DNA of 43,379 nt. Origin: Candidatus Eisenbacteria bacterium. GTDB taxonomy: Bacteria > Eisenbacteria > RBG-16-71-46. The number at the start of each line of letters is the position of its first letter. The stretch's first letter is position 1. Shown in pieces: positions 1,444-35,167 of the stretch. Both the position numbers and the translations under genes were made by a program. The DNA is taken from assembly GCA_013140805.1 (NCBI GenBank), contig JABFRW010000014.1, positions 1 through 43,379 on the forward strand, in the 5' to 3' direction. The notes under the pieces were generated by a model, which saw only the letters and a list, made by a program, of their open reading frames with translations, had not been told where the DNA came from and did no database searches.

Positions 1444-2421
1444 CTAGTGGGTCCAGCTCAGCGAAACGATGAGCGGGTACGCGACCTGCTCACCCGTCGA
1501 CCAGGTCTTCAGCGGGATCTGCGCTCGGAGCCCGATCGCTCCCAGGTGCGCGATCGGCCGTGAGACTCCCGCCGTGAGCATCAGATCCGTGCGTCCGAGA
1601 TTCCCCTCGTCCCCGATCCGGCCATCCCACCGTTCGGGACTCTCGCGCTCCAGCGCAAGACCGCCGGTCGCGCCCCACGCGCCCCCGGCCGTGCGACTCG
1701 CGCCGAGCCGCAGGCCATAACGGTTTCCCGCGCGATAGCCGTGCGAGTTTTCATGAAGCGTGAGTTTGAAAGAAGCCGACGCGTGAATGCCGATGGCACC
1801 GAGCGGGCGCGCCGCAGTCACACTCAGCAGCGGATCCCAGGTGCCGGTGCCGAATTGAATGTGCTGGTGGGGAAGCCCGAGTCTTCCGAGCTCGAACGGA
1901 TTGGACTCGGTGCGCCCCACCGGGATCGAAATTCCGAAGCTCGCGGCAAGTGTCCACGCGCTCGCTGCCCGGGTGACGAGGGCGGCGACCTGTGGATCTG
2001 CGATGTGCAACAGCGTCTCGTTGCGATGATGCGTGTCGGGCGCCGGAGGCACGAACGGATTCCCCGCCAGGTCCTCGAAGCGGATGCGGTCGCGAAGACC
2101 TCGCACCGGTACCGCGAAGGCAAGCCCCGGTCCCGGAGCGATCCCGCGCGCCATCGCAATCCCGAGCTCACCGACCAGCAACCGTTGGCGATGCCAGTAG
2201 GGCGTGATGAGCCCCGGGTCCTCGGACTGCACGTGCTCGATGCGAAGCGAGGTCGTGGTGAGTGTCGCTCCGTAGCTCCACGCCCCGGGTTCGGGTGCGA
2301 TCCACGCGGACCCGCCGACCGGCAGGTTGGGATTCGATCAGCCCGCTCAGGTCGCTCCGGCGACCGGCGAGAATCCGAGCGCCACGCCGATCAGGCCGGC
2401 CAAAATGGAACGACGAGTCAT
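1444..2421 (-). CDS. Putative selenoprotein: exported beta-barrel-like protein with UxxU motif (two in-frame UGA)
   Basis: The ATG at 2421 overlaps the stop of the upstream thioredoxin fusion (ATGA). It starts a clear signal peptide, M-T-R-R-S-I-L-A-G-L-I-G-V-A-L-G-F-S-P-V-A-G-A. Codon 25 is TGA (2349-2347) and codon 28 is TGA (2340-2338). The same frame then stays open for 297 codons to TAG. The predicted mature N-terminus is T-U-A-G-U-S-N-P-N-L-P-V-G-G. The remainder is rich in Gly and aromatic residues with alternating strands, ends in S-L-S-W-T-H and looks like an outer-membrane barrel. A hairpin at 2326-2311 could be the SECIS for both codons. Default gene calling would start at GTG 2232 and lose the signal peptide and motif. 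I infer that Cys homologues carry CxxC here. The alternative is a double nonsense pseudogene, which the intact frame and coupling argue against. The function is unknown; a periplasm-facing redox or metal site is the natural guess. Confidence 0.72.
2311..2326 (-). promoter_or_regulatory. Candidate bacterial SECIS hairpin for the two-UGA gene
   Basis: On the transcript the sequence reads CCUGCC-GGUC-GGCGGG: a 6-bp stem (one U.G pair) closed by a GGUC loop. The loop begins 17 nt after the second UGA and 26 nt after the first. Both distances fall in the roughly 16-37 nt window known for bacterial SECIS elements. The well-studied E. coli fdhF element has a GGUCU loop about 18 nt after its UGA, a close match. 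No bulged U is evident in the stem. The identification rests on spacing and loop only. Confidence 0.5.
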
Positions 2422-3107
2422 CGCGAGCGCAGCGCGGAGGCGAGTTGCCGAATGTTCGCACCGACCAGATCCGTGCGCTTGCCGTCGGGTGAAAAGACCA
2501 CCAGGTAGGGCAGCGCCTTGAGCCTGGCACCCAGCTCGCGCGCGAGCGGTGACTTGAAGTCCACCACGTCGAGTTTTCGGATCGCGAGATCCCGGCGTTG
2601 CTCGGTGAGCGTGCGAAGCTCGGCGTCCACGACGCGACACGGACCACACCAGTCGGCATACACGTCGAACACCGTGTACTTGCCCGCGACCCTGAGCCTC
2701 TCGAGCGGACCGACGACGGAGCCGTTCTCTGTCAGGACCACGACATCCGCGCCGGCGGGATACATCCCGAACGGAAGATAAGCACCTTGGCCCGCTCCCA
2801 CCGTGCCACTGAACCCGGCTCCCGAGCTCGCGATCACAATCAGCACGGCTTCATCCGTGACCTGATCGGCCAGCGTCACCGTGAGCTCGGCCTTCTGAAT
2901 GTCGAAAGCGGTTCGCTTCACGCCATCGACTCTCTTGAGTGTCGAGCGGATGACGTTGCCGCAATCGCCGCAGTCCAGGCCCTGGATCGAGTAGACACGA
3001 ATCCGATCGGCGTGGGCGGATGCAGCGACCAGCAGCGCCCCCAGCGTGAGGACCGTGATCCAGCGTCGGGTCGGAAGCGACGCAAGGCCGCGCGAGCGAA
3101 GCACCAT
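2418..3107 (-). CDS. Exported HMA-domain/thioredoxin-domain fusion protein
   Basis: This is a 229-residue protein with a signal peptide (W-I-T-V-L-T-L-G-A-L-L-V-A-A-S-A-H-A). Residues ~35-100 form a heavy-metal-associated ferredoxin-like fold with the metal-binding C46-G-D-C49. Residues ~120-229 form a thioredoxin fold with the redox pair W-C154-G-P-C157 and the cis-Pro region L-P-Y-L-V-V-F. The protein should act in the periplasm and pairs metal capture with thiol-disulfide chemistry. Its stop overlaps the ATG of the putative selenoprotein, so the two are translationally coupled, and the thioredoxin domain is a plausible reductant for the U-A-G-U motif (inference). No Shine-Dalgarno is visible; a TAGCCT element sits 6 nt before the ATG. 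It diverges from the first RND operon. Confidence 0.85.
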   Translation of the reverse strand: MVLRSRGLASLPTRRWITVLTLGALLVAASAHADRIRVYSIQGLDCGDCGNVIRSTLKRVDGVKRTAFDIQKAELTVTLADQVTDEAVLIVIASSGAGFSGTVGAGQGAYLPFGMYPAGADVVVLTENGSVVGPLERLRVAGKYTVFDVYADWCGPCRVVDAELRTLTEQRRDLAIRKLDVVDFKSPLARELGARLKALPYLVVFSPDGKRTDLVGANIRQLASALRSR

Positions 3108-3119: not shown

Positions 3120-3154
3120 GCACAGGCTCCCGGGTGCGAGCCTTCGGCCGATGA

Positions 3155-3183
3155 TTGACACCCTTCTGCTTCTGGTCGAGACT
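3155..3183 (+). promoter_or_regulatory. Possible sigma-70-type promoter of RND operon 1
   Basis: A perfect -35 box TTGACA (3155-3160) is followed by 17 nt and GAGACT (3178-3183), a weak -10 with the key A2 and T6. The next start codon is ATG 3193, so the message would have almost no leader. The box lies inside the longer reading frame that begins at 3151, which favours the shorter start. Confidence 0.4.
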
Positions 3184-3192
3184 GCGCGCCTC

Positions 3193-3567
3193 ATGCTCAT
3201 CACGCTCCGCCGACTCGCGATCTTCGTGCTCTTGTTCGCCGCCTTGCTCGCTCAGGCCTCGAACGGATTCGTCCACTTGCACGTTGCTGCGGCCCACGTG
3301 ACGGCGACGGAACACCACCACCATGATTCGCAGCCGGCCGATGCGGAACGGTCGGCTGATCCGGATCCGGATCACTCACACCAGCTGAGTGTTGCGGGCA
3401 GCGCGGTGGTGCGGGTCACGGGCAATGCCAGCCCGATTGAGCCGGCCGCAGAAGCAGTTCAGCGGTTCACGCTCGCGCCTCCGCCGCGCGCTCTGACCTC
3501 GCGGCGCACCGCCTCGCAGTGCACCGCACCCTCTTCCCGAGAACGACACTCCATCTTGCGCCTCTGA
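3193..3567 (+). CDS. Small exported His-rich protein heading RND operon 1
   Basis: This is a 124-residue protein. The N-terminus L-I-T-L-R-R-L-A-I-F-V-L-L-F-A-A-L-L-A-Q-A is a signal peptide or anchor. It is followed by a metal-binding-like stretch, H-L-H-V-A-A-A-H-V-T-A-T-E-H-H-H-H-D, and a second D-P-D-P-D-H-S-H cluster. I recognise no named family. It sits directly upstream of a TolC/adaptor/RND set, the same place filled by Cys-rich exported proteins in the other two pump operons, so a periplasmic metal-binding or sensing role is likely (inference). An in-frame ATG at 3151 is an alternative start, but it lies across a good -35 box. Confidence 0.6.
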   Translation: MLITLRRLAIFVLLFAALLAQASNGFVHLHVAAAHVTATEHHHHDSQPADAERSADPDPDHSHQLSVAGSAVVRVTGNASPIEPAAEAVQRFTLAPPPRALTSRRTASQCTAPSSRERHSILRL

Positions 3568-3634
3568 TCGAACGGGTCGTCGTCGCACCTCGACCGTGCT
3601 CGAGTGTGCCTTTCCCGTTCCGTTCGGAGGATCC

Positions 3635-4843
3635 ATGTGCAGGGGAGTTTTCGTGCTGCTGGCGTGCCTTGCCGCCAGCGAGGTTCGCGCTGCTGCGGAA
3701 GTCTCGGAAGATTCGTTCCTCGACGCGGCCACGCGTGACGTGCGGGTGCGAGCCGTGCTCGACGAGCCGCTCCGGGCCGCACGTGCCGTGCGAGCCCGAG
3801 CGAGCGTCCTGTCGAACCCGGAAGCGGGCTTCGATCGCGAAGCCCTGAGCGGCGAGCCTCGCCAGGACACCTGGAGTGTGTCGTGGACGCCGCCACTCGA
3901 CGGTCGGTACTGGGCGCAGGATCGCGCAGCGCGGGAGGGCCTCCGCGCTGCCGAGAACCAGCGCGAACTCTCCGCACTCGCGTTGCGTTCCGAGTTGCGC
4001 GAAGCGTTCGCCGCATGGGCGGTCGCCCAGGACGGCGCAGTGCTCGTCGAGCGCCTCGCGAACCTCGTGGACCGGCTCGCAAGCCGGACCGAAGCTCAAG
4101 CATCCCGAGGTGAGGCGTCGGTCCTGTCGGCCCTGCGCCTTTCGCTCGCTCGCACCGAGATCAGAAGCGAGGCTGCTCGACTGACTGCCGAACTCGCGCG
4201 CACGCGCGGACGGGTGCGGGCATGGATGCCGGGACTCGCGCCGGAGGCGCTCCCCGTGCATCCACCACTTCCCCCGGTCCCCACCGACACCTCGCTCGGA
4301 GCGACTTCTCCTCGCCTCGCGGTGCTCGAGCACGTACTCCTTCAGGCCGAGGCTTCGGCGAGCGTCGCGACTCGCTTCTGGTCGCTACCTGAGTTCGTCG
4401 TCGGACGTCAGACGGTGCGCGGCAACCTCGTGGATCTTGACGGCGAGACCTACGGAGTCCGCTGGAGGGTGCCGTTGTTCGATCGCCAACGTGGAGAGCG
4501 GATCGAGGCTCGCGGGCGGGTGGATGCAGCCCGCGCTCGCCGCGAACTGGAGACCGTTCGGGTGCGCGAGGGACTCGCGGCTGCGCGATCCGCCTACGCC
4601 ACATTGCGCGGCTCCGCGGCGCTGGCAGCCGGCGCGGAGTCGGCCGCCAGCCGTGTCCTCGAGAGCGCGACGGCGATGTTCGGGGCGGGCGAGAGCAACG
4701 TGACGGATTTGCTGGAAACCCTGCGCGGAGTACTGAGCGGCCAGTTGGCGGCACTCGAGTGCTACGCCGAGGCACTGAGCGCTCACCGTGAACTCGAGGT
4801 CGCGGCCGGGAGGCCGCTGCCGCTGATCGAAGGAGAAAAGTGA
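3635..4843 (+). CDS. TolC-family outer-membrane efflux protein (system 1)
   Basis: This is a 402-residue protein with a signal peptide (C-R-G-V-F-V-L-L-A-C-L-A-A-S-E-V-R-A). It has two long helical halves rich in Ala, Arg and Glu (A-L-R-S-E-L-R-E-A-F-A-A-W, then R-E-G-L-A-A-A-R-S-A-Y) typical of the CusC/CzcC trimeric outer-membrane channel. It would form the exit duct for the adaptor and permease downstream. ATG 3635 is chosen because GGAGGA precedes it and the signal peptide begins there; an earlier in-frame start at 3596 lacks this. It ends in TGATG, overlapping the adaptor start. It is a little shorter than typical TolC proteins (about 420-450 residues). Confidence 0.85.
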   Translation: MCRGVFVLLACLAASEVRAAAEVSEDSFLDAATRDVRVRAVLDEPLRAARAVRARASVLSNPEAGFDREALSGEPRQDTWSVSWTPPLDGRYWAQDRAAREGLRAAENQRELSALALRSELREAFAAWAVAQDGAVLVERLANLVDRLASRTEAQASRGEASVLSALRLSLARTEIRSEAARLTAELARTRGRVRAWMPGLAPEALPVHPPLPPVPTDTSLGATSPRLAVLEHVLLQAEASASVATRFWSLPEFVVGRQTVRGNLVDLDGETYGVRWRVPLFDRQRGERIEARGRVDAARARRELETVRVREGLAAARSAYATLRGSAALAAGAESAASRVLESATAMFGAGESNVTDLLETLRGVLSGQLAALECYAEALSAHRELEVAAGRPLPLIEGEK

Positions 4844-6351
4844 TGCGGCGGACCGGCTGGACGATCACCGCCCTCGCGGCGCTTGCATGGCTCGCGAACG
4901 GCTGCAGCACGAAGGGAGAGGAATCGCACCCGCACGACCACGAGCCGTGGGCGGTGACCTCGTGGGGCAAGCGCTACGAGATCTTCGCCGAGGCCGACCC
5001 CCTGGCGGTCGGTGAGACCGCCAAGTCGCACACGCATGTCACGATCCTCGACGGCTTCGCGGCACTCACGGAGGGAGTCGTCTCCGCCGTGTTGATCGAC
5101 TCGACCGGTGCGAGTTCAGTGTTCACCCAGCCCAAAGCGCTACGGCCCGGCATCTACTCGATCGAGATCAAGCCGAAAACCGAAGGCGTGTTCGCACTCG
5201 TCTTCCGCATCGAGAGCGCGGCCGGCACCGAAGAAATTCCATCAGGCCGGGTTCAGGTCGGCTCGCACGATCGGCCCGGAGGTCTCGTCGAGGCGCCGCC
5301 TCCGCCGGCAGTAACCAGCGCTGCGGCCGCAACGGGCGGTGATCCTGTCGGCTTTCTCAAGGAACAACAGTGGCGCATCCCATTCATGACCGCATGGGCA
5401 GAGCCCGGGTCGTTGCGGGCGTCGGTGAGCGGGCCGGCTCGAATACGTCCCGCCGCCGGCGGAGAGGCAGTGCTCACCGCCCCGCTCGACGGTGTCGTCG
5501 TCCCCTCGCGTCGGCTTCACGTGGGGCTCGCGGTCGCCCGCGGCGGCACAGTCGTCGAGTTGCGCCCGCGTGCGGGCTCGGGTCGCAGCTTCGCGGAGAT
5601 CGAATCCCAGTGGAAGCTGGCGAGCGATCGACTCGCGCGACTCGAGGAGTTGTTCGCGGCCGATGCCGTCAGCCGTGCCGAGCTGGATCGGGCGCGAGCG
5701 CTCGCAGCCACGCTTCGATCGGAGCTCGATGCGGTGAGCGGTACCGGGCGCACGATTCCCGTGCGCGCGCCGTTCGGAGGCCGCATCGCCGAGGTAATGA
5801 TCACCCCGGGTGCGGCGGTCGTGGCCGGTGCGAGCCTCGTGCGGCTGGTTCAGACCGACCCGCTGTGGGTCGAGATCGGACTGCGTCCCGAGATTGCAGG
5901 ATCGCTCGATACCGCACCGGTCGGTCTCGTCATCCAGGGCGGGCCGGAGCAGCCACCCGTGGTGTTCGAATCCCGATCGATGCGTCTGGTCTCGCGTTCC
6001 CCCGAGGTGGATCGAGCGACCGGGCTCGTGCAGGCCATCGTCGAGGTGCGAGGTGCCGGGGAACTTCGCGTCGGAGCCGCGGTTCAGGCCGAGATTCTCC
6101 TGTCCGGAGCGCGAATCGGAATCGTCATTCCGCGGGAGTCCATCGTTGACGACGCGGGAGTCACGGTCGTCTACGTCCAGTCCGAAGGGGAGAGCTTCGT
6201 GCGGCGCGAGGTGCGAATCCTCGGGCGGCAGGGCGATCACGTGATGGTCGAGGGGGTCGGGCCCGCGGACCGCATCGTCACCCGCGGTGCTGCGGCGGTC
6301 CGACGATCCGCACAGATGTCATCGGGAGAGGTCGAAGGTCACGTTCACTAG
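4843..6351 (+). CDS. RND periplasmic adaptor lipoprotein with N-terminal YtkA-like domain (system 1)
   Basis: This is a 502-residue protein with a lipobox L-A-N-G-C21, followed by H-P-H-D-H-E. Residues ~30-125 form an immunoglobulin-like domain of the YtkA/FixH type (S-H-T-H-V-T-I-L-D-G-F), which is uncommon in classical CzcB proteins. From ~residue 180 it has the biotinyl-lipoyl, helical hairpin and beta-barrel order of membrane fusion proteins (V-V-P-S-R-R-L-H-V-G, then V-R-A-P-F-G-G-R-I-A-E-V). It links the inner-membrane permease to the TolC channel and may hand over metal. GTG 4840 is an alternative start; ATG 4843 overlaps the previous stop. The adaptor of system 3 shares the extra N-terminal domain. 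Confidence 0.88.
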   Translation: MRRTGWTITALAALAWLANGCSTKGEESHPHDHEPWAVTSWGKRYEIFAEADPLAVGETAKSHTHVTILDGFAALTEGVVSAVLIDSTGASSVFTQPKALRPGIYSIEIKPKTEGVFALVFRIESAAGTEEIPSGRVQVGSHDRPGGLVEAPPPPAVTSAAAATGGDPVGFLKEQQWRIPFMTAWAEPGSLRASVSGPARIRPAAGGEAVLTAPLDGVVVPSRRLHVGLAVARGGTVVELRPRAGSGRSFAEIESQWKLASDRLARLEELFAADAVSRAELDRARALAATLRSELDAVSGTGRTIPVRAPFGGRIAEVMITPGAAVVAGASLVRLVQTDPLWVEIGLRPEIAGSLDTAPVGLVIQGGPEQPPVVFESRSMRLVSRSPEVDRATGLVQAIVEVRGAGELRVGAAVQAEILLSGARIGIVIPRESIVDDAGVTVVYVQSEGESFVRREVRILGRQGDHVMVEGVGPADRIVTRGAAAVRRSAQMSSGEVEGHVH

Positions 6352-6365
6352 CCGGCGGAGGAACC

Positions 6366-9300
6366 ATGCTCAATTCGATCATCGCCGGCTCGCTCAAGCA
6401 CCGCGTCCTGGTGCTCGCTGCCTCGGCGATCCTGCTCATCATCGGGATGTTCGTCATCCCAGGCATTCCCGTCGACATCTTTCCCGACCTGACTGCTCCG
6501 AGCGTCACGGTGTTGACCGAGACTCGCGGAATGGCGCCGGAAGAAGTCGAGCTGCTGGTGACGTTTCCGCTCGAGTCGGCACTCAACGGCGCGTCCGGTG
6601 TGCGTCGGGTTCGATCAGTCTCGGCCGCTGGCATCTCGGTAATCTGGGTCGAGTTCCAGTGGGGCCAGGATGTCTATCGGGCACGGCAGGTGGTCGCCGA
6701 GCGCGTTCAGGGCGTCGCGCTGCCGGCCACCGTGAGTGCTCCGGAGCTGGGACCGGTCAGCTCGATCATGGGGGAGATCACGTTCATTGCACTCACGTCC
6801 TCCGACCCCCAGCTCGGTTCGCTGGAGTTGAGGCGTATCGCCGAGACCACGGTGCGCCGGTCGCTGCTCTCGGTGCCCGGCATCTCTCAGGTCAAACCGA
6901 TCGGCGGGGACCTGCGCGAATTTCAAGTCGAGGTGGATCCGCAGCGCTTGGCGCAGCTCGGTGTCTCTCTCGATCAGGTTGCCGACGCGCTCAACGATGC
7001 CACTCGCGATCCGGCGGCGGGATTCCATGTCGACCAGGGACAGGAATACCTGGTTCGAGGTCTGGGCCGTGCACGCGGCTCCGAAGATCTCGCCTCCGCC
7101 GTGATCGACTCACGAGGCGGCACTCCGATCACGGTCGGGAGCGTCGCGACGGTTCGGGTCGGTCCCGAGCCCAAGCGCGGCACGGCTTCCTACGGGACCC
7201 GCCCGGCCGTGATCCTGAGTGTGCAGAAGCAACCGGGCGCGAACACGCTTGCGCTCACCCGTGAAATCGACGGCGCGCTCGAACGGCTCGCCCCCACGCT
7301 CCCGGCCGGCGTCACGATCGAGAAGGAGAACTTTCGCCAGGCCGACTTCATCGAGATCGCGATCCACAACGTCACCGCTGCGTTGCGCGACGGTGCCCTC
7401 CTGGTCGTTGCCGTCCTCTTTCTGTTCCTCGGCAACGTTCGCACCACCTTCATCATGGCGCTCGCGATCCCGCTGTCGCTGGTGGCTGGCATTCTCGTGT
7501 TCTCCGCCTTCGGCATCACGATCAACACCATGACGCTGGGCGGGCTCACGATAGGGATCGGTGTGCTCGTGGACGATGCGATCATCGACATCGAAAACGT
7601 CCTGAGGCGATTGCGACTCGAGCACCAGAAGCCCGAAGGGACGCGGCGAAACGCCCTCGAAGTCGTGTACGGCGCCTCATCCGAAGTGCGCGGCGCCATC
7701 TTCTACGCCACGCTGATCATCGCGCTGGTGTTCGTTCCGCTGTTCCTGCTGCCGGGCATGGAGGGCCGCCTGCTGCGCCCGCTGGGTCTCGCCTACATCA
7801 CGGCGCTCGTTGCGTCGTTCCTTGTGTCGCTCACCGTCACTCCGGTCCTCTGCTACCTGATGCTGGCTAACTCGCGCGTGGTCGAGACCGGTGAGCCGTG
7901 GCTGCTGCGAAAGCTCAAGGCCCTGTACGCGCGAAGCCTCGAGAGCGCAATCGCCCATCCGCGCCGCGTCTATGCATTCACGCTCGTGCTGCTCGCCAGC
8001 GCGCTCGCCATCCTGCCGTTTCTCGGCCGCGGCTTTCTGCCCCCATTCAACGAGGGATCGCTCACCGTGTCGGTGGTGAGCGCGCCCGGCATCACGCTGG
8101 ACGAAAGCGATGCGATCGGTCGCGAGGTCGAAAAGGCGCTGCTCGCGTTCCCGGAAGTCGTCTCCACCAGTCGCCGTACCGGCCGCGCCGAGAAGGACGA
8201 ACACGTGCAGGGCGTCAACGCCTCGGAGATGGAGGTGGTGCTCCGCAGCGGGCGACCGAAAGAACGCCTGCTCGAAGAGATGCGGAAGTCGGTCGCCGCT
8301 CTTCCCGGAGCACAGGTGAGTTTTGGCCAACCGATCAGCCACCGGATCGATCACATGATCTCCGGCAGCAAGTCGAGTCTCGCGGTCAAGATCTTCGGGC
8401 CCGATCTGTCGGTGCTGCGCGGACTGGCGTCCGCGGCGCAGCGCGTGCTCGCCGAGGTGCCCGGCATCGTGGACCTCGGCAACCAGGAGCAGGCGAGCAT
8501 CCCGCAACTTCTGATCGAATTCGATCGTGCCGCCATGGCACGACACGGAGTGACCGCCGCCTCGCTCGCTCGAACGGTCGAAGCGTCGTTCCAGGGGACC
8601 GAGGTCGGACAGATCACGGAGGAGGGGGTGATCTCCCGCGTGGTTGCTCGCTTCCCTGCGGGCCTTCGACGAGACCGCGAGCAGATCGCGAGTCTGCCGG
8701 TGACGAAGCCGAACGGAAGCATCATTCCGCTCGGCGAGGTCGCACGCGTTCGCTTCGACCTGGGGCCGAGCCTGATCCGACGCGAGGACGTTCAGCGTGT
8801 CGCGATGCTCACCGCGAATATCGCGGGGGCAGATCTGGCAGGCACCGTAGAAGAGGTCGCGCGACGGATCGACGCCGAGGTGACGTTGCCTACCGGCTAC
8901 CGCCTCGTCTACGGCGGCCAGTTCGAGGAAGCGGCGTCGAGTGTGCGAAACCTGGCACTCATCTCGGTGCTGATTCTGGTCGCCATGTACGGCCTGCTCT
9001 TCATCGCGTTCCGACGCCTCCGACACGCGACGATCGTACTCGTCAACCTGCCGCTCGCGGTGATCGGCGGCGTATTCGCGATCTCACTGGGAGGCAGCGG
9101 GCTCAGCATCGCGGCGCTGGTTGGATTCATCACGCTGTTCGGCATCGCAACGCGTAACGGTGTGCTGCTGGTTTCGCACTATCAGCATCTGATGGGTGAG
9201 GAAGGCCTGCCGGTCGAGGAGGCGGTGCGTCGCGGGTCGATGGAGCGCCTCGCACCGGTGGTGATGACCGCACTGGCAGCGGGGCTCGCGCTCATCCCGC

Positions 9301-9491
9301 TCGTGATCGCGGGCGGCAAGCCCGGTAACGAGATCCAGAGCCCGATGGGGCAGGTCATCCTCGGGGGGCTCGTGACCTCGACGTTCCTCAACATGGTGCT
9401 GGTGCCGGTGCTGTTCCTGCGTCATGGAGAAAGGCGAGTCAGTGATCGTGGCGGTGATGGAGGTCCGGCGCATGCGGATGCGAATGGGTAA
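6366..9491 (+). CDS. HME-RND efflux permease (system 1)
   Basis: This is a 1041-residue protein, full length for CzcA/CusA-type proton-driven pumps of the inner membrane. The N-terminus has the usual helix followed by D-I-F-P-D-L. Two blocks of transmembrane helices flank two periplasmic porter loops. The TM4 proton-relay segment reads G397-I-G-V-L-V-D403-D-A-I-I-D-I-E410-N. The aspartates at 403 and 404 are kept, but the first Asp of the CzcA signature (D-F-G-x3-D-G-A) is Gly. The substrate is therefore not safely Co/Zn/Cd and may be a monovalent or other metal (inference). A GGAGG lies before ATG. The 3' end overlaps the convergent EamA gene by 53 bp. Confidence 0.92.
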   Translation: MLNSIIAGSLKHRVLVLAASAILLIIGMFVIPGIPVDIFPDLTAPSVTVLTETRGMAPEEVELLVTFPLESALNGASGVRRVRSVSAAGISVIWVEFQWGQDVYRARQVVAERVQGVALPATVSAPELGPVSSIMGEITFIALTSSDPQLGSLELRRIAETTVRRSLLSVPGISQVKPIGGDLREFQVEVDPQRLAQLGVSLDQVADALNDATRDPAAGFHVDQGQEYLVRGLGRARGSEDLASAVIDSRGGTPITVGSVATVRVGPEPKRGTASYGTRPAVILSVQKQPGANTLALTREIDGALERLAPTLPAGVTIEKENFRQADFIEIAIHNVTAALRDGALLVVAVLFLFLGNVRTTFIMALAIPLSLVAGILVFSAFGITINTMTLGGLTIGIGVLVDDAIIDIENVLRRLRLEHQKPEGTRRNALEVVYGASSEVRGAIFYATLIIALVFVPLFLLPGMEGRLLRPLGLAYITALVASFLVSLTVTPVLCYLMLANSRVVETGEPWLLRKLKALYARSLESAIAHPRRVYAFTLVLLASALAILPFLGRGFLPPFNEGSLTVSVVSAPGITLDESDAIGREVEKALLAFPEVVSTSRRTGRAEKDEHVQGVNASEMEVVLRSGRPKERLLEEMRKSVAALPGAQVSFGQPISHRIDHMISGSKSSLAVKIFGPDLSVLRGLASAAQRVLAEVPGIVDLGNQEQASIPQLLIEFDRAAMARHGVTAASLARTVEASFQGTEVGQITEEGVISRVVARFPAGLRRDREQIASLPVTKPNGSIIPLGEVARVRFDLGPSLIRREDVQRVAMLTANIAGADLAGTVEEVARRIDAEVTLPTGYRLVYGGQFEEAASSVRNLALISVLILVAMYGLLFIAFRRLRHATIVLVNLPLAVIGGVFAISLGGSGLSIAALVGFITLFGIATRNGVLLVSHYQHLMGEEGLPVEEAVRRGSMERLAPVVMTALAAGLALIPLVIAGGKPGNEIQSPMGQVILGGLVTSTFLNMVLVPVLFLRHGERRVSDRGGDGGPAHADANG

Positions 9492-10583: not shown

Positions 10584-10704
10584 CATCGATTCCCAGGTAC
10601 AGGATGCATGGTCGGCGCTGCAGCATCGGAGCGAAGCCGAGCAAGATTGAGTGAGTGACCGATTCGACTTTCACTACCCAATGAGCCAGCAGCAGGAGTC
10701 ACCG

Positions 10705-13113
<2,409 letters not shown>

Positions 13114-16200: not shown

Positions 16201-16413
16201 CGCCCACTCGATCGGGAAGGTGATGCGTTTCTCGACCTCGAGCGGCGACAACGCCTCGACCGGAGTGTTGATCTGCACCTGAACGTTGGTGATGTCCGGC
16301 ACCGCGTCGATGGGCAGGTGGCCGAAACTGTAGAGCCCCAGCGCAGCCATCCCGAGGGTCGCGAGCAGAACGAGCCAGCGCTGTCGAATCGAGAATGAAA
16401 TGATGCGTTCCAT
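13201..16413 (-). CDS. HME-RND efflux permease, divalent-cation (CzcA/CnrA) type (system 2)
   Basis: This is a 1070-residue inner-membrane proton/metal antiporter, full length for CzcA. The TM4 segment reads D401-F-G-I-I-V-D407-G-A-V-V-M-V-E414-N, the exact D/D/E proton-relay spacing of CzcA, known for Co, Zn, Cd and Ni exporters. Periplasmic porter blocks and the second helix bundle (A-G-V-G-F-I-A-L-S-G-V-A-V-L-N-G) are intact. It differs from the other two permeases here, which lack the first Asp, so this pump probably handles divalent cations while the others handle something else. It is the last gene of a minus-strand operon (small Cys-rich protein, TolC, adaptor, permease), 15 bp after the adaptor with a GGAAG upstream. 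Confidence 0.93.
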   Translation of the reverse strand: MERIISFSIRQRWLVLLATLGMAALGLYSFGHLPIDAVPDITNVQVQINTPVEALSPLEVEKRITFPIEWAMGGIPGVEQVRSLSRYGLSQLTVIFKDGTDIYFARQLVNQRLQEARESLPSGVEPTMGPISSGLGEIFMWTVEAETSARRPDGRRYTLTDLRTIQDWFVRPQVRTVPGVTEVNSIGGFEKQFHVTPDPAKLLAHGLSFRDVFEALARNNSNAGAGYIEHGDEQYLIRSTGLVQTLADIENVVLRTSDGTPVRVRDVATVEIGQELRTGAATDRGEEAVLGTAIMLIGENSRTVSKRVAEKMEDVNRSLPDGLRTRTLYDRTYLVEATLRTVRNNLFEGALLVVVVLFLLLGNLRAALIVAMAIPFSMLFAITGMVQRNISGNLMSLGAIDFGIIVDGAVVMVENIVRRFAHRQRDLGRLLSHRERLEEAFLSSREVARPTLFGVAIIMIVYLPILTLSGIEGRMFKPMASVVLLALAGALILTFTFVPAAVAVFLRGRVAEDENFLLRFARRAYEPALEWALRRRGLILGAAAVLVVACGFLASRMGSEFVPKLGEGALAIQPARIPSISLRASVAMQKQVETLIRREFPDEVSDIFARTGTAEIATDPMGPNVSDTYVMLTPRSKWKKARTQEELAEAIEEKVKLLAGQNFEISQPIELRFNELIAGVRSDLAVKVFGDDLATMTVAANRISRILSSIRGAADVKVEQTAGLPVLTVDVDREAIARYGLSVADVQELVSTATGGSTVGEVLEGDQRFDLVVRLPEHIRRDLHAIESLPVPIPASEPQPQALALASSSHSEAHRAHVPLGAVARISLLEGPNQVSREDGKRRVVVQANVRGRDLGTFVAEAQRRVQQEVQLPPGYWIRWGGQFENLAAARNRLAVVVPLALFLILVLLFMTFGSIPQTLLVFTGVPLALTGGIIALAIRGLPLSISAGVGFIALSGVAVLNGLVIVSFINALRDRGVPLDQAIREGSVTRLRPVLMTALVASLGFVPMALAHGTGAEVQRPLATVVIGGIISSTLLTLIVIPVLYRLLASRAKAAGTDHEATAPAGESA

Positions 16414-16428
16414 GCGGTTGGCTTCCTT

Positions 16429-17514
16429 TCAATGCCCGTGGCCGGCTTCGGACTTCTGAAGTTCGGATTTGAGAACGAAGCTCGCGCGCGAGACGTACCG
16501 CTCGCCGGACTTCAGTCCCGACAGGATCTCGATCCACTCTCCGTCGGTGCGTCCCAGCTTGACCGCGCGCGCCTCGAAGCCGTCGGCATCCGCGATGAAG
16601 ACGCAGTCCCGCTCTTCCACCCGCTGCACGGATCCGTCCGGCACCGCCACGGAAACCTCTCGCTCGTTCACCACGACTCGTGCGGTGACGAACATTCCGG
16701 GGCGCCACCTCAGTTCCCGATTGGGAATGGCGACGCGGGCCGTTGCGGCTCGGGTGGCTTCACCGACGACCGCTCCCACGTAGTCGATCACGCCTCGAGT
16801 GGAGGGTCCGACTCCGACGGACTCGACGAACACGGTCTGACCGCGACGGACTTGCGCGACATCGCGGGCATAGACGGCGACGTTGACCCACACGGAGGAC
16901 AGATCGGCGACGACGTAGATGTCCTGATCGTCCCGCACGAACTCGCCGAGCGTCACATGCTTCTCGATCACGGTTCCGGAGATGAGCGAGTTCACGACGT
17001 AGGTCGAAAGGCTCTGGTTGCCTTCGATCACCGCCAGCTCTTCGCCCGCATGAACCTGCTGTCCGAGTCCCTTCTTAACCTCACGGACGATGCCGGGGAA
17101 GCGCGGAACGATGTGCGCCAGTCGATCCGCATTCGGAACGACTTCACCCGGAAGATCGAGCGTGACGCGCAGGCGGCGAGCGCCGGCGACTTGCACCTCG
17201 ATGCCGGAGGCAATCTGTGACTCGCGAGACAGTTTGACGTGTCCTTCCTCGGGCTCCGCCTCGGAGTGCCCTGCCTCGGAGTGCCCTGCCTCGGGGTGCC
17301 CTGCCTCGGAGTGCCCGCCTTCAGAGTGCGCTGCCTCGGAGTGCTCCGGTTCCGTGTGACCGGGATCCTCGGCGTGTTCGTGAGCGTCTCCCTTCTCACT
17401 CGCGGCGCTCTCGGCGCCTTTCGATTCTGGCGCCTGCGATGGCTTGGAGCAGGAAGCAGCGAGGAACACGAGCGCCAGCAGCCCGATGATCCTGATCGTT
17501 GCGGCACGACTCAT
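16429..17514 (-). CDS. RND periplasmic adaptor lipoprotein with His/Glu repeat linker (system 2)
   Basis: This is a 361-residue protein with a lipobox L-A-A-S-C22. It is followed by an acidic His-rich linker (H-E-H-A-E-D-P-G-H-T-E-P-E-H) and tandem S-E-A-G-H units up to about residue 90, likely a metal-binding tether. The rest is a CzcB-like membrane fusion protein: lipoyl-type segment (V-P-R-F-P-G-I-V-R-E-V-K-K-G-L-G), hairpin and barrel domains, and C-terminal membrane-proximal domain (F-V-L-K-S-E-L-Q-K). The ATG overlaps the TolC stop (ATGA). The much longer open frame upstream is the TolC gene region read in another frame, not an extension. The C-terminus G-H-G-H adds two more histidines. 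Confidence 0.9.
   Translation of the reverse strand: MSRAATIRIIGLLALVFLAASCSKPSQAPESKGAESAASEKGDAHEHAEDPGHTEPEHSEAAHSEGGHSEAGHPEAGHSEAGHSEAEPEEGHVKLSRESQIASGIEVQVAGARRLRVTLDLPGEVVPNADRLAHIVPRFPGIVREVKKGLGQQVHAGEELAVIEGNQSLSTYVVNSLISGTVIEKHVTLGEFVRDDQDIYVVADLSSVWVNVAVYARDVAQVRRGQTVFVESVGVGPSTRGVIDYVGAVVGEATRAATARVAIPNRELRWRPGMFVTARVVVNEREVSVAVPDGSVQRVEERDCVFIADADGFEARAVKLGRTDGEWIEILSGLKSGERYVSRASFVLKSELQKSEAGHGH
17258..17348. repeat. 15-bp tandem repeat coding for S-E-A-G-H units
   Basis: About six imperfect copies of a 15-bp unit (plus-strand form GCCTCGGAGTGCCCT) lie within the adaptor gene of system 2. On the coding strand each gives Ser-Glu-Ala-Gly-His or a one-residue variant (E-G-G-H, E-A-A-H, P-E-A-G-H). 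Such a repeat can expand or contract by slippage in steps of five residues, changing the number of His ligands without breaking the frame. Confidence 0.85.
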
Positions 17515-34922: not shown

Positions 34923-34927
34923 CGTGA

Positions 34928-34988: not shown

Positions 34989-35167
34989 GGGTCGAACACC
35001 CGGTCCAAATGGCCGGGAGTGGCAAGTACCGTGCGCGCCCGCAACCTGAATCGTCACCTTGCCGTAGAGCGCAACGTCAGTCGGGAACGAAGCAGCTCGC
35101 TCCACTCAGGAGCTCGTGGGCCCCGGTCACATCCCACCCGGGGGCGGACGAGGCAAGGAGAGGAATC

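Follow-up and report, generated by a model that had tools for sequence, protein, structure and literature searches.

Outer-membrane channels of the COG4313 group (PF13557 Phenol_MetA_deg; 4rl8, Pput2725) and the protein FapF (5o65/5o67) have a 12-stranded barrel, and the same number of strands was obtained in the model of the protein described here. COG4313 channels also share with this protein a short segment preceding the first strand. In Pput2725, whose structure is solved, a stretch of ~14 N-terminal residues is tucked inside the barrel, where it blocks the lumen towards the periplasm (PMC4493636). What separates the family studied here from COG4313 channels and FapF is a UxxU/CxxC motif (U, selenocysteine), an SNPxxP block, a set of histidines and a thioredoxin partner; a hydrocarbon or amyloid gene context was not seen around its members. 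A second resemblance exists to PcoB/CopB: the barrel has 12 strands, the N-terminal tail is linked to metal, and the gene shows a 4-base overlap with that of a periplasmic partner, as is the case here (PMC12509749). However, the tail of PcoB is long, disordered and rich in His and Met, while the tail in question is short and contains a Sec/Cys pair without His/Met runs. UxxU motifs have been described in other folds. SelL-type proteins carry a UxxU motif able to form a diselenide (PMC2398784), but they are peroxiredoxin-like with a thioredoxin-type fold, whereas here the motif lies in the N-terminal tail of a barrel. NF041115 has a UxxU metal motif and NF049945, a TonB-dependent receptor (FCYXU selenoprotein), is an outer-membrane barrel with CxxU, yet both differ from the present protein in fold or size (PMC13188914).

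The window, i.e. the whole stretch of 43,379 nucleotides of Candidatus Eisenbacteria DNA that was analysed, contains the putative UxxU barrel gene at positions 1444..2421. The initial annotation had recognised this frame correctly but had missed its strand; the gene runs on the minus strand from 2421 to 1444. There, the order that had been proposed (signal peptide, UGA-Ala-Gly-UGA and 297 open codons in a single frame) was recovered. If UGA is translated as Sec, as the homologues indicate, the frame encodes 325 aa beginning with MTRRSILAGLIGVALGFSPVAGAT-U-AG-U-SNPNLPVGG... and ends with a TAG stop (1446-1444). The signal peptide predicted from the sequence comprises residues 1-23 (2353..2421, minus strand), and its hydrophobic leader has an equivalent position in all near homologues. 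The first putative Sec codon (U25; 2349-2347, minus strand) is UGA in the second copy of the gene, in genome G028 and in 60 poribacterial UGAU loci, and TGC or TGT in homologues of the CPAU and CAGU types. The second one (U28; 2340-2338, minus strand) is UGA in all near homologues that were read, except for two CAGC members. Since cleavage of the signal peptide is likely to occur after A-G-A, U25 would be approximately the second residue of the mature protein, which agrees with the suggested position of U-A-G-U at the mature N-terminus. A standard ORF call covers the segment from 2232 to 1444 only (262 aa) and misses the motif, as had been anticipated. Also in line with the initial annotation, the barrel ATG overlaps the TGA stop of a gene for an HMA-thioredoxin fusion by the sequence ATGA (2418..2421, minus strand), suggesting translational coupling. 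The same overlap with an upstream thioredoxin gene exists at loci L153 and L155, and the second copy exhibits TGATG.

This second copy was identified in the same genome (contig C172, positions 16307-17272). Its product is 64% identical to the barrel protein of the window, both UGAs are present within UAGUSNPNLPVGG as in the window, and the same partner gene lies upstream. Within the class, a second family also has near homologues; outside it, they were detected in Candidatus Poribacteria and the phylum of genome G222. In these proteins, the motif directly follows the signal peptide and reads UxxU, CxxU or CxxC ahead of S/T-N-P. The phylum of G222 alone covers a series of variants, namely CAGC (L152, L154), CAGU (L153, L155, L157-L159, L161-L163), UAGU (L164-L166), USGU (L156) and UTAU (L160), which precede SNPNLPVG, SNPTLPVG or TNPNLP. 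The homologues of genomes G085 and G028 were first listed as stop-free because the match ended short of the N-terminus. Reading upstream of the match revealed both UGAs in the two paralogues of G085 (...QES-U-GA-U-SNPAIP) as well as in G028 (...FAG-U-PA-U-SNPSLP).

The protein part after the motif was used as query for a scan of 84,980 species genomes, which yielded 149 matches. The best 80 of these matches belonged without exception to Candidatus Poribacteria and showed the motif directly after the signal peptide, as U-G-A-U in 60 and as C-P-A-U in 20 of the 80 loci, the Cys codon of the latter being TGT or TGC. Within this phylum, to which G085 belongs, the barrel gene was found in 67 of 85 genomes. 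A scan of genome contigs with the motif written with Cys gave no match, because TGY patterns cannot match TGA, and no barrel relative was detected in the plasmid and viral collections. Distant relatives often have CxxC at the motif site (CSEC, CSQC, CSIC, CASC, CATC, CDYC, CAHC, CGKC); others show CGxExCP-type pairs, and a few lack Cys. Homologues beginning after the second TGA, or a lack of Cys at both positions, would have refuted the reading of the frame as a selenoprotein. Neither was the case, since every near homologue has the signal peptide and the motif ahead of S/T-N-P and Cys occurs in the poribacterial CPAU loci, in the CAGU and CAGC members and in the distant CxxC relatives. In a tree of 53 members, calculated by a quick method and with long branches flagged by the program, the distribution of UU, CU and CC requires a minimum of three changes, the first position having changed three times and the second once. 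The simplest reading of these sequences is that UU was the ancestral state.

Some observations on single loci may be added. Poribacterial genomes often contain at least two paralogues, one of them CPAU, some of which lie in metal-type neighbourhoods (L078-L097). Poribacterial copies in G594 (C20), G603 (C2:632587-633145) and G621 (C1:1198170-1198780) match piecewise, which suggests frameshifts or decay. At L139 (2190-3491), a gene of the DUF3179 family, which includes known Sec members, adjoins a CSCGG-type Cys relative of the barrel.

The partner gene of the window (2418..3107, minus strand) is predicted to encode an exported protein with a leader, an HMA domain (CGDCG) and a thioredoxin domain (WCGPC), and ends with TGA. 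Its thioredoxin domain shares 45% identity over 88 residues (E 1e-25) with the thioredoxin encoded directly upstream of the CAGU/CAGC genes. The latter is fused to a lipoprotein-like Cys/His-rich stretch (CEHRVPxETCTRCNPxL...DWCGEHxVPESQCxxCHPDL), a metal-type domain differing from the HMA domain of the window; the respective gene is located at L155:785-1477 and has equivalents in L153, L157-L159 and L161-L163. At two further loci of another phylum (L174:4276-5616 and L176:5381-6703, both plus strand), the thioredoxin (WCEPC / WCEAC) is fused in frame to the C-terminus of a UAGU barrel. Both ends of a barrel of this kind point into the periplasm, so that in the fusion protein the thioredoxin and UxxU come to lie on the same side. 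Two distant Cys relatives (L104, L105) have a TlpA-like thioredoxin gene downstream. In Poribacteria, no partner of the HMA-thioredoxin type was found within about 5 kb of the barrel genes, and a tblastn search for the partner thioredoxin at the barrel genes of G028, G554 and G573 was negative. The comparison of these loci demonstrates, at the level of sequence, that both UGAs are decoded, that the motif is a redox-type pair of the series CxxC, CxxU and UxxU, and that its partner is a periplasmic thioredoxin, either coupled or fused.

Divergently to these two genes, a metal-efflux run begins on the plus strand. It starts with a small His-containing protein (3151..3567) without Pfam match and continues with an outer-membrane efflux protein (OEP; 3596..4843), an HlyD/CusB-like adaptor (4840..6351) and an RND pump (ACR_tran, CusA-like; 6366..9491). 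A metal P-type ATPase with YHS and HMBD domains is encoded at 10651..13113 on the same strand. In the poribacterial CPAU group, the barrel gene has neighbours coding for YHS, OEP or Cys-rich small proteins, e.g. a YHS protein and OEPs at L085, while obvious metal neighbours were absent from the second copy and from the poribacterial UGAU genes.

To describe the barrel, an AlphaFold2 model (m564bacd80afb) based on an alignment of 44 members was used. The model has 12 strands (pLDDT 75, pTM 0.74), with low confidence for residues 12-30, and Foldseek matched it to FapF (E 9e-11) and to the COG4313 channel 4rl8 (E 3.7e-10, TM 0.73 by target), as would be expected for the exported barrel protein that had been postulated. 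A profile sequence search of the PDB gave no meaningful match. Likewise, Pfam revealed no family for the protein, including PF13557 and the copper-resistance barrel families. Some relatives came close to the cut-off of PF13557 (22 bits) or exceeded it, a CPAU member reaching 20.1 bits and the Cys relatives L101 and L104 reaching 27.2 and 31.1 bits. The protein would function in the manner of the COG4313 channels and is probably a divergent relative of them, but since it remains below the Pfam cut-off, it was not filed as a COG4313/PF13557 member. The UxxU motif is located ~18 residues ahead of the first strand, in a segment that by analogy would be equivalent to the pore-plugging N-terminus of the COG4313 channel. 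Due to the low confidence for residues 12-30, the plug position of the motif rests on this analogy alone, and its placement in the pore is inferred. Five histidines (H77, H131, H132, H185 and H187) are invariant among the 44 members, and these and other barrel residues are as conserved as the motif. H131-H132-R133 and H185-x-H187 lie in long loops which are extracellular by strand order; H77 starts strand 2 beside loop 1. According to the modelled strand order, the conserved His residues would be away from the periplasmic N-terminus unless the N-terminus threads the lumen.

The best reading of these data is a selenoprotein channel with a UxxU plug under the control of a thioredoxin and with a probable role in the handling of soft metals. 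This reading is favoured with reasonable but limited confidence, and for its mechanistic part (plug, thioredoxin and metal), which is inferred, the chances are about even or slightly better. Counting against it are the thioredoxin gene missing within about 5 kb of the poribacterial barrel genes and the lack of an obvious metal locus around the second copy. By analogy with the solved COG4313 channel, the N-terminal UxxU segment would enter the barrel from the periplasm, and the two Sec residues might alternate between an oxidised state, in which they form a diselenide, and a reduced one that binds metal. The reduced UxxU would be maintained or reset by the partner thioredoxin, the HMA (or Cys/His-rich) domain of the partner could deliver or remove a soft metal ion, and the plug may then act as a gate or a loading site that is controlled by redox state and metal, in a channel working beside the Cus-type efflux system. 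A bolder version, a selenium latch on the pore, remains tentative, namely that a plug diselenide is opened by the coupled or fused periplasmic thioredoxin and thereby links the redox or soft-metal state of the envelope to the permeability of the outer membrane.

That the motif is related to a CxxC-like redox or metal site, as the initial annotation had it, is supported by the CxxC/CxxU/UxxU pairs of the homologues; both a redox and a metal site remain possible. It is conceivable, albeit doubtful, that the Sec pair serves solely to bind metal, forming an N-terminal soft-metal site that passes ions to or through the channel, the thioredoxin merely repairing oxidised Sec. The Cus-like pump and the metal ATPase within the window would fit this assumption, as would the HMA or Cys/His-rich domain of the partner, the conserved His residues of the barrel, the existence of the UxxU metal-binding family NF041115 and the example of PcoB with its metal-binding N-terminal tail, 12-strand barrel and 4-base gene overlap (PMC12509749). 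On the other hand, metal genes are missing around the second copy and around the poribacterial UGAU genes, and the fusion to thioredoxin points to a main function that includes a redox step. Such a step would also be central if the protein, held in the outer membrane by a barrel that is mainly an anchor, acted as a redox enzyme or a device for electron transfer, with UxxU reducing a substrate (peroxide, disulfide or metalloid) in the periplasm or outside the cell. Sec is mostly used in redox catalysis (PMC13188914), a UxxU diselenide protein is known as a precedent (cited in PMC2398784), and the motif occurs here with a thioredoxin partner or fusion. Nevertheless, this explanation is rather improbable because barrel residues and His are conserved as strongly as the motif, UxxU is not surrounded by a thioredoxin fold (models of the thioredoxin family from Pfam and NCBIfam did not match the barrel) and the N-terminal tail is too short to build the active site of an enzyme alone.

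The objection that the frame arose by chance or artefact, with two in-frame stops and a true start at 2232, or that it represents a pseudogene or an assembly error, had to be considered as well. The window is very GC-rich and contains 180 ORFs of at least 100 aa, and a UGA-N6-UGA pair preceded by at least 20 and followed by at least 290 open codons is expected 0.18 times per window by chance (order-2 Markov control). Such frames are thus not rare in GC-rich DNA; the frame alone is weak evidence and the comparison decides. Another UGA-N6-UGA pair with a long open frame exists at 34925 (plus strand), upstream of an ATG at 35009. It is probably fortuitous. For the barrel gene, the UGA pair is repeated in the second copy with its 64% identity and in several other lineages, Cys replaces Sec in some of them, and the signal peptide and the SNP block upstream of 2232 are conserved. 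Furthermore, the codons following the UGAs are frozen. A block of 15 codons (45 nt; residues 24-38; 2308..2352, minus strand) is identical at the DNA level in both copies of the genome, synonymous codons included; after the first UGA, 12 of 12 comparable codons are the same, compared to 52% elsewhere (~4e-4 by chance). In 44 poribacterial genes, the normalised codon entropy is 0.43 near the UGAs and 0.76 elsewhere. Judged from the compared sequences, this conservation puts the barrel frame far beyond chance, and an artefact can practically be ruled out.

A candidate SECIS hairpin, (A)CCUGCC-GGUC-GGCGGG(U), was identified at 2310..2327 (minus strand), its loop being located ~18-21 nt downstream of the second UGA. 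Both copies have such a GGUC-loop hairpin at this site, and the loop closely resembles that of E. coli fdhF. The stability of the window hairpin did not differ from that of shuffled sequences at this GC content (z -0.19), a value near 0 that is compatible with an artefact, while some homologues reached z -2.2, -2.5 and -3.9; an Rfam search of the window gave no match. A SECIS element after the UGAs is likely, not proven, and since the thermodynamic evidence was weaker than expected, it was not counted as proof. At poribacterial loci (e.g. L018, L035, L063), a small hairpin (AGTCAG-TTT-GACT / AGTTAG-TTT-AACT) lies ~35-50 nt after the second UGA. It shows a compensatory change from C-G to U-A in 7 of 26 sequences and is possibly a second part of the SECIS.

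Absence of Sec genes would also have spoken against the proposal. However, the genome contains tRNA-Sec (67 bits, above the cut-off) adjoining selD, SelB (349.6 bits) and SelA (390.8 bits), the selA gene being split over two contig ends (end of C105 and start of C185). SelB scored above the cut-off in G002, G005, G008, G028 and G085, too. Among 12 further genomes, 11 passed as well and G339 did not. Hardly more tenable than an artefact is a change of the genetic code with UGA as an ordinary sense codon, which could account for two in-frame UGAs within one gene, but UGA still terminates genes (the partner gene directly upstream and roughly twelve poribacterial barrel genes among the best 80 of the 149 matches) and hence is not reassigned, the exchange partner is Cys and not Trp or Gly, and the full Sec machinery is in the genome. 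It is thus nearly certain, although inferred from sequences and without any protein-level, selenium or phenotype data, that the window gene encodes a real selenoprotein with two Sec residues.

None of the 119 prokaryotic selenoprotein families listed in a review of 2026 (PMC13188914) and none of the nine new deep-Sep families (PMC12013277) corresponds to the barrel protein, and NCBIfam, including NF041115 and NF049945, did not match it. A paper naming both selenoproteins and Poribacteria was not found; subscription papers and preprints were outside this search, so that an earlier mention is possible. Hence, the protein represents a selenoprotein family new to Pfam, NCBIfam and the list of 119 families, which occurs in most of the sampled Candidatus Poribacteria, in several lineages of another phylum and in the genome studied here. 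Gene callers that are blind to UGA decoding shorten these barrel proteins by the part containing the functional motif, and the family has been overlooked by standard gene finding. Its two Sec residues would be placed on an outer-membrane channel and not on an enzyme with thioredoxin fold. Because nature provides the series CxxC, CxxU and UxxU in one scaffold, the value of one versus two selenium atoms is directly testable. If the inferred mechanism is true, the family would represent a so far unlisted type of channel, with a selenium-dependent gate or a role in metal handling.
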